Below are positions 4,198 to 9,073 of a stretch of DNA of 64,000 bases, piece by piece. This DNA is from Gammaproteobacteria bacterium (lineage in GTDB: Bacteria > Pseudomonadota > Gammaproteobacteria > Steroidobacterales > Steroidobacteraceae), in contig JAGWWY010000007.1 in NCBI GenBank assembly GCA_018970145.1, forward strand, positions 1 to 64,000, read 5' to 3'. Position numbers and translations under genes: made by a program. Positions within the stretch are counted from its first letter, which is position 1. Each line of letters begins with the position of its first letter. The notes under the pieces are model-generated. The model searched no databases. It was not told the DNA's origin and was given only the letters and a program-made list of their open reading frames with translations.

Positions 4198-5079
4198 TCA
4201 GGAGCGCGACGATGATCGACGCTGCTCGACCGCCGAACGAGCTGACTCGAGCATGGCCGCGAGATGCGTCGCAGGGTCTGGCGCTTGCATCAATGCACCG
4301 CCGATCAACGCCAAGTCATAGCCGACGCTCGCCATACGCGCTGCGTCGGCCGTTGTGACGACACCGCTCTCGGCCACACGGGGCACCGACGTCGGCAACT
4401 CGGACACCAAATTCTCCAGGCGATCCGGCACGACTTGCAGACTTGCGAGATCACGACTATTGATTCCGATCAATAACGACGTGCTCGCTGATCGATAACG
4501 TTCGATCAAGCGCGCTGCCCGCTCGATTTCGACTCGATCAAATGTCTCGATCAACACAAAAAGCTGCTGCGCGAGCGCCGTTTCGCAGAGCAAGCTCAAG
4601 CTATGCTCATCGAGCATCCGAACGATCAACAACACCCCACCGGCACCTGCTGCCCTAGCCTCCAAAATCTGATACGGATCGACCAAAAAATCCTTGCGCA
4701 TCGTCGGAACGCGCGCGCCGCGACCATCCGCTGAGTGTCGAACCACACGTAACGCAGACGCGGCGCGCAAATGATCGAGCGAACCATCGAAGCGGTCCGG
4801 TTCGGTGAGCACGGAAATAGCCGCAGCGCCCCCTTGGACGTAGGAGCGGATTCGCGCGTCGGCCGAATCACCCGTGGCGTTACCGAGCTGTCCGAGCGCG
4901 GGTGAGCGCAACTTCATCTCGGCGATCACATCGAAGCCTCGCTCGGAAAGCGACAAAGCCGGCGGCGCTGGCAGATCCTCGAGTGACGCCGCGAGTTCCG
5001 ACTGCGGTAGCAGCAATTTGGCGGCCTCGACCCGAAGTCGACTACTCGCCGCCATCGCCGCAAGAAAGTCCTCAGCCAC
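4198..5079 (-). CDS. trpC: indole-3-glycerol phosphate synthase
   Basis: TrpC (293 aa) is a TIM-barrel enzyme that closes the indole ring from CdRP. The catalytic motifs are IAEMKLRSPALG (Glu and Lys of the usual E-x-K-x-x-SP), MRKDFLVDPYQI (the second lysine) and VAESGV (Glu-Ser). The INNRxL loop reads INSRDL, with Ser in place of Asn. I chose the GTG start at 5079, which overlaps the trpD end by 8 bases, because a clear GGAG lies 7 bases before it. Upstream in-frame codons have no such site, and ATG 5055 would cut the N-terminal helix. Confidence 0.93.
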   Translation of the reverse strand: MAEDFLAAMAASSRLRVEAAKLLLPQSELAASLEDLPAPPALSLSERGFDVIAEMKLRSPALGQLGNATGDSADARIRSYVQGGAAAISVLTEPDRFDGSLDHLRAASALRVVRHSADGRGARVPTMRKDFLVDPYQILEARAAGAGGVLLIVRMLDEHSLSLLCETALAQQLFVLIETFDRVEIERAARLIERYRSASTSLLIGINSRDLASLQVVPDRLENLVSELPTSVPRVAESGVVTTADAARMASVGYDLALIGGALMQAPDPATHLAAMLESARSAVEQRRSSSRS

Positions 5080-6121
5080 GTCCAAACTCCGCCAAGCGCT
5101 GCAACATCTGCTTTGCGGTGCCGTTCTCGATGACGGCCGACGCTCGCGCGACGCCCTCCATCGCACTTGTCACGAGTCCGGCACACTCGAGCGCCAGAGC
5201 GGCTCCCATCAGCAAGGTATCGCGATGTGCGCCGACGTCGCGCCCCTCGAAAACCGCGCGTAACGCGGCCGCGTTATTCGCGGCATCACCACCTGCAAGC
5301 TCGGTTGGCTCGCAGGTGCGCATCCCGTAATCGCCGGGGCTACGAACACTGCGCGTTACGACACCGGGTCGTACATCGAACAATACGAACGGCCCTGCCG
5401 TAGTTGGCTCGTCCCAACCGAGCGCACCGTGTACGACAAAAGCGCGCGTCACACCGGATGAACCGGCGAGCGTCTCGGCCATGAGCTTCGCTATCGGCTC
5501 GCTGTAGGCACCAACGAGCTGAAACGGGGGTGCCGCCGGGTTGGTGAGGGGACCGAGCACATTGAAAATCGTGCGAATGCCGAGCGCTTGTCGGATCGGT
5601 GCGATCGCCTTCATCGCCGGATGGTAATGCGGCGCAAAAAGAAACGAGAAACCAGTCGCGCGCAAACACTCGCCGGCGCGCTGCTCATCGAGTGGCAACG
5701 GTAAACCGAGGGCTTCGAGCACATCGGCACTGCCGCTACGGCTCGAAATGGATCGATTGCCATGCTTGATGACCGGAGCACCACACGCGGCCACGAGTAG
5801 TGAAGTGCCCGTCGAAATATTCACGCTGCCGGACGCGTCGCCGCCTGTGCCCACGATGTCGATGGAGCGACGCTGTAGATCGACAGCGACTTTGGGCTTG
5901 CGTGCCAACTCGCGCATGGCGGCCGCGAAACCGCGCAACTCCGCCGCCACGACACCCTTCGCTCGCAACGCAGCGAGGACCGCGCCTGCAACCGCTGGAG
6001 GCAAAGACGGATCGGTTAGGGTTTTGAGAAGCCTTGTGCTCTCTTGCTCGCTCAGATGATGACCATCCAGCACACACTCGAGCATTTCTTTGACCAATTT
6101 TTCTGTGACGGAGTCAGTCAC
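5072..6121 (-). CDS. trpD: anthranilate phosphoribosyltransferase
   Basis: TrpD (349 aa) transfers the phosphoribosyl group of PRPP to anthranilate. The PRPP/Mg-binding glycine-rich loop [14 protein letters not shown] and the segment [21 protein letters not shown] are fully conserved, as is GVRHRAxxP-like [15 protein letters not shown]. It starts with GTG at 6121, 5 bases after GGGAGG, and overlaps the trpG end by 8 bases. It is a separate protein, not fused to TrpG as in E. coli. Confidence 0.97.
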
Positions 6122-6707
6122 GATAACCTCCCGACTGCAGCAGAAAATTTTGCATCAGTCGAGGACCATCCGGCGTGAGCACGCTCTCGGGATGGAATTG
6201 CACCCCCTCGACCCGGAGCTCACGATGCCGCACGCCCATGATTTCTCCCTCGGCGGTCTGTGCGGTGACCTGCAGATGAGCCGGGAGAGTCTCCGGTTGT
6301 GCAATCAAAGAATGATAGCGACCGATCTCACAAGGATTCGGCAGACCTTCAAACAAACTCCGGCCGTCGTGCGTGATCTGGGATGTTTTGCCGTGCATCA
6401 AGCGGCCGGCACGAACCACCTTGCCACCGAAAGCTTCGACGATGGACTGATGCCCGAGACAAACGCCGAAAATAGGCACTGTGCCGGCGAAGGCCCGAAT
6501 CACCTCCATCGAAACGCCCGCGTCGTACGGCGTACCAGGACCCGGCGAGATACATACATGGGTCGGAGCGCTCGCGAGTGCCTCTGCCACGGTCACGGCG
6601 TCGTTGCGCCGCACGTCGACCTCGGCACCCAAGATCAGAAACGCCTGCACGAGGTTGTAGGTGAAGGAGTCGTAGTTGTCGATCAGCAGCAGGCGCGGCG
6701 CAGTCAT
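6114..6707 (-). CDS. trpG: anthranilate synthase component II (glutamine amidotransferase)
   Basis: TrpG/PabA (197 aa) is a class I glutamine amidotransferase that supplies ammonia to TrpE. The oxyanion loop ISPGPGTP, the nucleophile elbow GVCLGHQ (Cys83) and the His-Glu pair in [10 protein letters not shown] are all present. I use the ATG at 6707, which has GGAGGG 9 bases upstream. The in-frame TTG at 6713 lies too close to that site and inside the trpE stop. The protein could also serve aminodeoxychorismate synthase if no other pabA exists. Confidence 0.95.
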
Positions 6708-6709
6708 GA

Positions 6710-8104
6710 TCAAAGACCCTCCGCGGCCATCGCAAGCGCACGCGCGGCAGAGCTACTCTTGGCGAGCACCTCATCGTATTCGCTTTGGGGCTGACTGTCG
6801 GCAACGATGCCAGCGCCTGCCTGATAGGAGTATTCGTCGCCACGGAACACCAGCGTTCGGATGGTGATGGCCTGATCCATGTCGCCTTGAGCGCCAAAAT
6901 AACCGACCGTGCCACCATAGAGCCCACGCCTGACCGGTTCGAGCTCATCGATGATCTCCATCGCACGCACTTTTGGTGCACCGACCAAAGTGCCAGCCGG
7001 GAACGCAGCCGCGAACAGATCGAATGCATCACGACCCGGCGCGAGCTCGCCGCGCACGCCACTGACCATATGCATGACATGACTGTAACGCTCGATGGAT
7101 TTGTAGGGCGCCACATGCACGCTGCCAGGCTTTGCGACACGCCCCAAGTCGTTACGCGCCAAGTCAACGAGCATGACGTGTTCGGCATTTTCTTTGGGAT
7201 CAGCGAGTAGATCGATCTCGCGTTCGCGATCAAGGAGATCATCTGTCGAGCGCGGTCGGGTCCCTGCGATCGGTCGCAATTGCGCTTGTCCGTGCGAGAG
7301 CTTCACCAGCGCTTCGGGCGAAGACCCGACGACCGTGATGTCGCCGAGCGCGCAGTAGTACATGTACGGCGATGGATTGATGAGGCGCAGCGCGCGATAG
7401 GCCTCGAACGGATCGACATCATGTCGCCCCGCAAAACGCACCGATAACACGAGTTGGTAGACATCGCCCGCCGCGATGTATTCCTGCGTGCGGCCCACCT
7501 TGGCTAAAAATTCGCTCTGCGACATCGAGGCCACCGGCGCACTGAACTTCCCGCGGGCACTCGGCAGCGGAACCCCTCCCCGCAGCGCGAGAATGATCTC
7601 GCGACGCAAGGCTTGGCGTTCGGTCTCGCTGCCCGAATGCAGCAAAGCGATGCCGCGCGTCAGATGATCGAACACGAGCAACGACCCCGGCGCGACGTAG
7701 TGCAAATCGGGTACGCCGGCTCGATCGGGTGTGAATGGCGGTAACCGCTCAAAGAATCGAACGACATCGTAAGAGGCGTAGCCCACCAGGCCGCCCGCCA
7801 ACGGGAAATCAGGGCCGGCACCAGGAGCGGTCGGCCTCGGCGCTTTCGACAACGCAACTCGCAATGCGGCCAACAACTCTCGCTGATCCCGAGGAATCGA
7901 CAGCGGCTGAGTCCCCTGCGTGAAGCCATCCGCAGCGAGGCGAATGGCGAAACCCGAGTCACCGAAACCGATGAAGGAGTAGCGCGCGAGACGTTCGCCC
8001 CCCTCCACGCTCTCGAGCAAGAAAGTCGGGTTGAAGGCGCGCAGCTTCAAGAACGCCGATACGGGCGTGTCCAGATCACCAGCGATGTCGAATGGTGGTT
8101 TCAT
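6710..8104 (-). CDS. trpE: anthranilate synthase component I
   Basis: TrpE (464 aa) makes anthranilate from chorismate with TrpG-derived ammonia. The N-terminal feedback-site motif [17 protein letters not shown], with the LLES signature of tryptophan inhibition, is intact. The chorismate-binding core is seen in [35 protein letters not shown] and [12 protein letters not shown]. The ATG at 8104 lies only 6 bases after the U-run of the attenuator hairpin, so the purine-rich part of the 3' arm (GGGATGGG) is the only Shine-Dalgarno candidate. Translation may therefore also be masked when the terminator forms. Confidence 0.97.
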
Positions 8105-8110
8105 AAACGC

Positions 8111-8144
8111 AAAAACCCATCCCGGTTGTGTCCGGAGATGGGTT
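8111..8144 (-). terminator. trp attenuator (rho-independent terminator before trpE)
   Basis: Read on the minus strand, the arms AACCCATC-t-CCGG and CCGGGATGGGTT pair around an ACACAA-type loop. One T is bulged, and the hairpin runs into TTTTTG. It sits between the leader peptide and trpE. The Trp-codon stretch of the leader contains GGGTT, complementary to AACCC of the 5' arm, so an alternative pairing that would disrupt the terminator is possible. This is the classical ribosome-mediated attenuation layout. Confidence 0.85.
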
Positions 8145-8190
8145 CGGGTGGCTCATCCTCTTTGGATTTTTAGATCGACAGCGCCCCGCG

Positions 8191-8271
8191 CCCTCTCCCT
8201 CAGGAGCGGCGCCAACCCCACCAGCGGCGGGCATTCAATTGGTTGTACGAGGCAGCGAACATAGGAGAGGG
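8191..8271 (-). repeat. 8-bp inverted repeat bracketing trpL
   Basis: GGAGAGGG at 8264-8271 on the plus strand and its exact complement CCCTCTCC at 8191-8198 flank the leader peptide frame. One arm lies immediately after the leader stop codon, the other between the -10 and the ATG. If transcription starts downstream of the -10 run, the first arm is not in the RNA. The repeat would then be a DNA element or chance. If it is transcribed, it would form a stem closing over the leader. Confidence 0.4.
8200..8262 (-). CDS. trpL: trp operon leader peptide
   Basis: This 20-codon frame begins MFAASYNQ and ends in RRWWGWRRS, with three tryptophan codons in four (W-W-G-W). It lies 95 bases before trpE and is followed by the attenuator hairpin. 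Ribosome stalling at the Trp codons when charged tRNA-Trp is scarce would favour antitermination. There is no Shine-Dalgarno sequence: the bases before the ATG are a pyrimidine run (CCCTCTCCT). A promoter -10 ends only 9 bases before the ATG, so the mRNA probably begins at or next to the start codon. Confidence 0.85.
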   Translation of the reverse strand: MFAASYNQLNARRWWGWRRS

Positions 8272-8301
8272 AGTATCGCCGTCGAGCCAAACACGCGTCA
8301 A
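8272..8301 (-). promoter_or_regulatory. trp operon promoter
   Basis: On the minus strand TTGACG (8296-8301) and GATACT (8272-8277) are separated by 18 bases. They match the sigma70 -35 at 5/6 and the -10 at 4/6. The site lies between the stop of the TSUP gene (8312) and trpL. The ATG of trpL starts 10 bases after the -10, which predicts a leaderless or nearly leaderless transcript. No TrpR operator of the E. coli type was recognised. Confidence 0.6.
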
Positions 8302-8311
8302 GGACTGCCGC

Positions 8312-9073
8312 TCAGGCGTGATTGGCTAACCACCACTCGAAGAGGCCGAAACCCGCTAGACCCATCACCATCAAGCCGATTGCGGTAATGGCAATTCGTG
8401 ACGGGACGTGCTTAGCAATCCACGCACCGAAAGGCGCCGCGATGACCCCGCCGCCCAACAGAGCGATGACGAGATCGTACCGCCGCCAATCAAACGTAAA
8501 TAAAAACGTGATCGAGATCGCCAGCGTGACGAAGAACTCGGCGGCATTGGATGTGCCCACTGCATATCGAGGGGGCACACCATGCGCAATCAACGATGGC
8601 GTCGTCACCATTCCCCAACCACCACCGCCGATGGCATCGAGAAAACCTGCCGCTCCGCCGAGCGCATGACTCGGCGCACGCGCAAGTTCCGGCTCACTGC
8701 GACGCGACGCACGACGCAGCAGCAGCACGCCCATGACGAGAAGGTAGGCAAACACAAAGGGACGCAAGATGTTGCCATCAATAGAACTGAGCAAATAAGC
8801 CCCCAACGCACCCCCCACCATTCCGGGTATCACGAGCTTGATGAAAATACTGCGGTCAAGATTCCGAAACCACGCATGCGAGAGGCCTGATGCACCCGTG
8901 GTGACGACTTCAGCAGCATGGACGGTGGCGCTGACGAATGCCGGCGGATGCCCCATCGTTGTCAGGAACGCGCTCGCCGAGACGCCGTAGGCCATCCCCA
9001 TGGCGCCGTCGATCAACTGCGCGAGGAATCCAACGAGCACCAGCGGCCAAAATTCGGGGGAGAGCACATCCAT
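8312..9073 (-). CDS. TSUP (TauE/SafE) family permease
   Basis: This 253-residue inner-membrane protein belongs to the sulfite exporter TauE/SafE family. The two halves of the family repeat are seen as FLAQLIDGAMGMAYGVSAS near the N-terminus and GFLDAIGGGGWGMVTTPSLIA in the middle, separated by a basic cytoplasmic loop (LLRRASRRSEPELARAPSH). About eight hydrophobic helices follow this pattern. Family members move sulfite, sulfonates or other organic anions; the substrate here is unknown. A TAGGAT hexamer lies 6 bases before the ATG, but AGGA could equally serve as its ribosome binding site. Confidence 0.85.
   Translation of the reverse strand: MDVLSPEFWPLVLVGFLAQLIDGAMGMAYGVSASAFLTTMGHPPAFVSATVHAAEVVTTGASGLSHAWFRNLDRSIFIKLVIPGMVGGALGAYLLSSIDGNILRPFVFAYLLVMGVLLLRRASRRSEPELARAPSHALGGAAGFLDAIGGGGWGMVTTPSLIAHGVPPRYAVGTSNAAEFFVTLAISITFLFTFDWRRYDLVIALLGGGVIAAPFGAWIAKHVPSRIAITAIGLMVMGLAGFGLFEWWLANHA

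Follow-up and report, generated by a model that had tools for sequence, protein, structure and literature searches.

A probable trp attenuator in the Steroidobacteraceae, its leader peptide leaderless or nearly so and its terminator abutting the trpE start

Ahead of the Trp biosynthesis genes of a Steroidobacteraceae genome we find what is very probably a ribosome-mediated transcription attenuator of trpEGDC, whose leader peptide gene, trpL, would be translated from a leaderless or near-leaderless message. Its promoter, its leader reading frame, its conserved pairing blocks and the abutment of its terminator on the trpE start can be read from the sequence and from comparison among relatives. 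The element is real, well conserved and of a known kind, and where its terminator has repeatedly come close to the trpE start, control of translation may be added.

The window, by which we mean the whole 64,000-nucleotide stretch analysed (G000:C8:1-64000), comes from a source genome of 2.43 Mb in 23 contigs. Family profile matches place trpE, trpG, trpD and trpC on its minus strand, from 8104 down to 4198, with the candidate attenuator upstream of this Trp biosynthesis operon. The trpE gene (anthranilate synthase component I, 6710-8104), whose ATG start adjoins the terminator, has TIGR00564 as its best family (E 1.8e-141, 472 bits, under the model's curated cut-off of 518). The amidotransferase gene trpG (6114-6713) overlaps the end of trpE and matches TIGR00566 above cut-off, as trpD (5072-6121) does TIGR01245, and trpC (4198-5166) matches NF001377 below cut-off. 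Because this last match begins at residue 33, the trpC frame as listed, which starts within the end of trpD, is probably longer than the gene, and the true start lies further in.

On the minus strand before trpEGDC, a -35 element, a -10 element, trpL and a terminator follow one another, and the account in the first-pass annotation holds in its essentials. Sequence and comparison identify the -35 element as TTGACG (8296-8301) and the -10 element as GATACT (8272-8277), 18 nt apart; this pair is the sole promoter-like match on both strands of positions 7700-8500, with one found against 0.2 expected in shuffles. Among the 125 family members with a leader, the best -35 match reaches at least five of six positions in 107, and the -10 element is GATACT, CATACT or AATACT in 108. 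The exact promoter-plus-ATG pattern has two sites in the source genome, trpL and one other; the second was rejected, as its frame runs for about 70 codons and lacks tandem Trp codons.

For the comparison, 197 of 200 genomes searched gave a match, and 130 trpE upstream regions of the family were taken, one per genome: 29 of the first 30 loci, 100 further ones among the matches listed, mostly better-scoring, and L212. L020, which starts inside trpE, was left out, and L203, at a contig end, was omitted from the leader count, which therefore has 129 regions. Those relatives that carry a name are metagenome genomes labelled gammaproteobacterial or proteobacterial, and several come from lakes. Leaders were chosen by the peptide pattern W.?W, with ATG, GTG, TTG and CTG allowed as starts at offsets of 5-12 nt and ties broken towards ATG, and a hexamer was counted as -10-like if it matched GATACT at four or more of six places.

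In the window, trpL (8200-8262, minus strand) is a short frame of 20 codons that encodes MFAASYNQLNARRWWGWRRS before its stop codon, begins with an ATG at 8262-8260 and has no Shine-Dalgarno (SD) sequence. Its three Trp codons are codons 14, 15 and 17, the W-W-G-W run described earlier. The claim that this ATG stands 10 bases after GATACT, with pyrimidines only before it, is likewise borne out by an all-pyrimidine spacer of 9 nt, CCCTCTCCT (8263-8271), and transcription is predicted to start within this spacer or at its end. A W.?W leader frame with a -10-like hexamer ending 6-11 nt before its start is present in 125 of the 129 regions, with two to four Trp residues per leader. Leader starts comprise 124 ATG and one GTG, and the presumed trpE starts are ATG in 63 of the same 125 regions; an SD-like 4-mer precedes the leader start in 1/125 and trpE in 67/130. 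The leader frames thus carry one trait of leaderless mRNA, an AUG start (124/125) with no SD (a single SD-like 4-mer in 125). Dinucleotide shuffles of the sequence running from the -10 element to the first Trp codon predict an open in-frame ATG 5-12 nt past the -10 element in 6.0 of the 125 regions; it is present in 124.

The letters of the spacer and of the peptide diverge even among close relatives, and in the peptide only the Trp codons and the residues directly following are exempt from this variation. Since the -10-to-ATG spacing, the ATG and the absence of an SD are kept while these letters change, translation of trpL as a leaderless or near-leaderless frame, with a 5' UTR of at most about 6 nt, is well supported. 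The predicted length of 0-6 nt, which derives from promoter spacing only, follows from the first purine at the usual start distance, which falls 0-6 nt upstream of the first base of the ATG and is that A itself in 35/125 regions. The first-pass annotation had proposed a leaderless trpL outright. Family comparison upholds this as leaderless or near-leaderless, but the strict form does not carry over, because 90/125 regions have, 1-6 nt ahead of the ATG, a purine placed where transcription could plausibly start. We consider it very unlikely that trpL instead has a normal 5' leader, whether through transcription from an upstream start, such as read-through from the co-directional frame ending at 8312, or through translation from an upstream in-frame TTG (8301) or SD-dependent initiation. 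A TTG-initiated 33-aa frame does run in phase from 8301, and the upstream frame ends just 10 nt ahead of the -35 element. Yet that longer frame would begin on the -35 hexamer itself, members of the family share the -35/-10 pair but not the sequence ahead of it, and 124/125 leaders lack an SD-like 4-mer ahead of the ATG.

Departures from this arrangement are few. The leader pattern is missing from 4/129 regions, among them that of G132, a 1.4-Mb genome of the window's genus with no leader frame upstream of trpE. At this locus (L022), TTGACG and CATAAT stand directly before trpE together with sequence reminiscent of a degraded strand 3, and it looks like attenuator loss in a small genome. By eye, a similar -10-to-leader spacing recurs in more distant trpE loci, as GATACT plus 6 nt in Woeseia (L053) and CATACT plus 9 nt in L054, with L055 similar but less clear. 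In part of genus g18 (L024, L025, L117, L119, L130 and others), the leader frame extends beyond the Trp codons and strand 2 to give peptides of about 24-28 aa, so that the releasing ribosome would be shifted relative to the helices.

The RNA between the Trp codons and trpE can be laid out as four strands, all on the minus strand. By folding and alignment, strand 1, CGCCGCTCC (8203-8211), forms the 5' arm of hairpin 1:2, and the stop codon of trpL lies in the loop. Strand 2, GGGAGAGGGC (8190-8199), can pair with strand 1 or strand 3; strand 3, AACCCATCTCCGG (8132-8144), pairs with strand 2 as the antiterminator or with strand 4 as the terminator. Strand 4, CCGGGATGGGTT (8114-8125), is the 3' arm of the terminator, and is followed by a short U-tract of five U (8111-8115). 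The terminator hairpin AACCCATCTCCGG...CCGGGATGGGTT spans 8144-8114 at -20.3 kcal/mol, and the whole terminator 8144-8111. Within the window, these structures are unremarkable: a simple terminator scan of its sequence gave two sites against 1.5 expected, not above chance, and the fold of the whole leader scored z -1.46, with 14/200 shuffles as good. For this reason the case for an attenuator rests on the relatives.

Across 73 distinct regions from 16 genera, drawn from the 119 with a strand 2, with the window's genus capped at 12 and every other genus at seven, the alignment shows three conserved blocks. In the 3:4 helix, 89.0% of cells are paired and 5/12 pairs have changed on both sides, a number reached by 0/500 shuffles and exceeding every slid version of the helix. 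Together with the U-tract, these changes identify an intrinsic terminator before trpE. Counted as cells, changes on both sides come to 11, and two slid versions are higher (16 and 21); the innermost two pairs fail in 32 and 35 of the 73 regions. The protector hairpin 1:2 is paired in 80.4% of cells, with a covariation score reached by 0/500 shuffles, and its pairs changed on both sides number two, no higher than in the shuffles (mean 2.7). The competing antiterminator 2:3 is paired in 95.3% of cells, against 42-66% in slid versions. Covariation sought in 2:3 in the 73-region alignment was not seen, and this duplex is thus supported by conservation rather than compensation. In 99/119 regions at most 5/100 linker shuffles gave as good a 2:3 duplex; in the window, 25/100 pair equally well. 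Several g18 genomes have a strand 3 shorter by one base, which pairs with strand 2 without a bulge.

The letters of strands 3 and 4 are nearly invariant in the 73 aligned regions, and we suggest that strand 3 is held so because it has two pairing partners. The same conservation of the 3' end could be explained if the terminated RNA, of about 150 nt, were mainly a trans-acting dual-function sRNA like rnTrpL of Sinorhizobium meliloti, and a leaderless attenuator RNA with trans roles has been published (PMC7298713, PMC10117765). We regard this as improbable: having to pair with two partners is enough to account for the conservation of strand 3 with no trans target, and the leader peptide is variable in its letters except at the Trp codons and the residues that directly follow. 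A scan of the whole window with the Rfam covariance models gave 0 matches at gathering score. With E allowed up to 10 in 8000-8400, a single microRNA model on the plus strand (E 0.73) came up and was taken as chance. Rfam holds a Trp leader family.

Attenuation of trpEGDC would then proceed as follows. Transcription would start at the trpL AUG or a few bases from it, and trpL would be translated as a leaderless or near-leaderless frame. When Trp-tRNA is sufficient, the ribosome would get to the stop codon and cover strand 2, leaving the 3:4 terminator to form. When Trp-tRNA is short, the ribosome would stall at W14, W15 or W17 and cover strand 1, upon which 2:3 would form and the polymerase would read on. 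We infer the position of the 5' end and any effect on translation, and likewise the stalling and the termination, both read from the classical three-way pairing logic. Even when strand 1 is covered, leaving the RNA unconstrained gives a lower energy than imposing 2:3, both in the window (-46.2 vs -42.6 kcal/mol) and in the medians of the regions with an abutting terminator (-45.4 vs -43.2 kcal/mol), and 2:3 must therefore win by timing rather than stability.

The hairpin had been said to end 6 bases before the trpE ATG (8104), which is correct for the U-tract but not for the stem, whose last G lies 11 nt before it; at this distance the trpE start region falls inside the footprint of the inhibitory hairpin. 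A hairpin with a T-rich tail lies at most 70 nt from trpE in 123/130 regions. The other seven are L022 (no leader), L210 (none found), L185 (degenerate), L180 and L209 (hairpin further off), and L125 and L146, in which the automatic pick took another hairpin and the usual one is visible. We call a terminator abutting if its hairpin ends at most 14 nt before the trpE start, as in 25/123 regions from four genera: 15 from the window's genus (g1), five from g10, four from g18 and one from g7. The remaining 98/123 are spaced, often with a GGAG or GAGG of their own. On a quick trpE tree of 70 rows, 18 of whose 67 forks are weak, abutment needs six changes. Four spaced relatives fall inside the window's genus, including G078 and G162 on early, unresolved branches. 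In 15/15 abutting regions of g1 the last G of the stem stands 11 nt ahead of the ATG, though the letters of the spacer vary.

Strand 4 also holds the sole SD-like stretch before trpE, GGGATGGG. That much of the earlier description stands, but the stretch is weak, with a duplex energy of -7.0 kcal/mol predicted against what we take to be the anti-SD string, and none of the SD motifs searched is present in it. With so weak an SD candidate, trpE may rely on its ATG in an SD-poor context once the hairpin opens. In raw counts, the trpE start is ATG in 25/25 abutting regions and an SD is present in 1/25, against 36/95 and 60/95 in the spaced ones. Over six independent tree pairs, one or two differ in ATG and none to two in SD, and a link of abutment to an ATG start or to SD absence is not significant.

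In g21, 9/9 regions (L133, L149, L150, L159, L160, L163, L170, L174 and L177) have CTG at the position that aligns with the trpE start, with GAGG or AGGA ahead of it in seven. Since L149, L170 and L174 have no in-frame ATG, GTG or TTG before the upstream stop, CTG is the likely trpE start in these three; in L150 and L177 an alternative start is possible, at an in-frame ATG 6 nt and at a GTG 9 nt upstream, respectively.

Folding of the leader RNA, a check put forward with the first-pass annotation, gives little for the leader as a whole but does bear on the trpE start. The cost of opening positions -18 to +12 of trpE was computed for free RNA from the leader start and for RNA from strand 2 on, with strand 3 paired upstream. 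Imposing 2:3 lowers it from 20.6 to 11.5 kcal/mol in the window and, in the median, from 20.3 to 10.6 kcal/mol in abutting regions (n=25), against 10.5 and 10.1 kcal/mol in spaced ones (n=89); one further region of the 115, of intermediate spacing, was excluded from both groups. This difference is a folding-model prediction that follows from geometry, and the rank test on it ignores kinship.

Dual control, of transcription and of trpE translation, is therefore plausible in the abutting subset only. As strand 4 and the U-tract are the trpE ribosome-binding region, it is possible, although we lean slightly against it, that the 3:4 hairpin would block trpE initiation on read-through mRNA and that 2:3 would free it. 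The fuller scheme, in which one hairpin serves as terminator and, in the window's subset, as a translational lock on trpE, has arisen several times independently, and has both layers set by the stalled ribosome, we consider somewhat less likely than not. If it were true, a single ribosome stalled on a leaderless mRNA would both admit the polymerase and expose the trpE start, and leaky read-through under Trp plenty would remain untranslated.

To the simpler account we give an even chance: the element would act by transcription attenuation only, and the abutment would be a tolerated compaction of the spacer that leaves the regulation of translation untouched, since trpE would be loaded with ribosomes before the hairpin can refold. 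The hairpin must open for the polymerase to have passed. In keeping with this account, the 98/123 spaced relatives keep the terminator further from trpE with the same kind of leader, 35/95 spaced regions also lack an SD 4-mer before trpE, and the independent pairs give no significant link to abutment. Less easily accommodated are the predicted opening drop of about 10 kcal/mol in the abutting subset, absent from the spaced medians, the appearance of abutment in four genera with six changes on the tree, and the spacing fixed at 11 nt in every abutting g1 region.

Wider searches looked for this type of unit elsewhere. A class-wide pattern with three consecutive Trp codons, which misses the window's own WWGW leader, matched 40/143 genomes, and its reversed control 24/143. 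Set by eye against the trpE places listed, only the match in G015, of the same family, lies directly upstream of trpE; several of the matched genomes have no trpE place among the matches listed. In other gammaproteobacterial families, 19/40 trpE upstream regions (the best 40 listed) contain a frame of at most 45 aa with W.{0,2}W, and no unit of the window-family type was seen in those 40. Some of these W.{0,2}W frames also lack an obvious SD. Within the window's genus, the only trpE-like match of G065 (1.8 Mb, 95% complete) and of G126 (1.4 Mb, 83% complete) is distant (E about 1e-53, 41-42% identity), and a search of both for trpC, at these levels of completeness, gave no match, which suggests that they are Trp auxotrophs.

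In textbook trp attenuation, an SD precedes the leader peptide and the terminator stays clear of the ribosome-binding site of the structural gene. The family described here breaks with the first of these in almost every region analysed and with the second in 25/123. Its abutting and spaced attenuators, built of similar parts, are natural pairs and make the action of a terminator on translation directly testable.

Compared with known systems, the predicted unit shares with Escherichia coli trpL its 1:2, 2:3 and 3:4 logic and its tandem Trp codons. It differs in that its leader has no SD and its terminator lies at the trpE start; in E. coli an SD lies in the 5' UTR of trpL, and the trpE ribosome-binding site is apart from the terminator. 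The trp leader of Bacillus subtilis, in which the TRAP protein controls read-through as well as trpE translation and a separate hairpin sequesters the SD, offers a parallel for the two-layer control predicted here, for which the sensor would be the leader-peptide ribosome rather than a protein. Mycobacteria reportedly carry polycysteine attenuators with leaderless short reading frames (work cited in PMC13236596), which would resemble the present case in joining a leaderless leader frame to an amino-acid response, theirs to cysteine and ours to Trp. In the literature, mainly that outside subscription journals, we noticed no description of a Steroidobacteraceae trp attenuator and, in the same scope, no leader-peptide attenuator whose terminator overlaps the trpE start.

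A comparative paper argues for a terminator-to-gene distance of at least 40 bp, presuming the terminator to be clear of the ribosome-binding site (PMC4833913), and classical trp attenuators are described for Corynebacterium and Streptomyces in another paper (PMC1262725). Leaderless trpL is already known from two lineages. In S. meliloti, the small mRNA rnTrpL starts with the AUG of trpL, and the trpLE(G) arrangement (rnTrpL/peTrpL) resembles ours in its Trp-rich trpL upstream of trpE, its AUG-start mRNA and its terminator/antiterminator model (PMC10117765, PMC7298713). That system is alphaproteobacterial and the present one gammaproteobacterial, and here the terminator enters the trpE start region. 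Streptomyces lividans trpL1, transcribed leaderless and encoding a WWW peptide, is likewise a leaderless Trp leader before trpE, with two hairpins and a U-rich stretch, in an actinobacterium whose trpE, unlike ours, is reported to be monocistronic (PMC8079986). The family described here would extend leaderless leader peptides, published for an alphaproteobacterium and for actinobacteria, to a gammaproteobacterial lineage.
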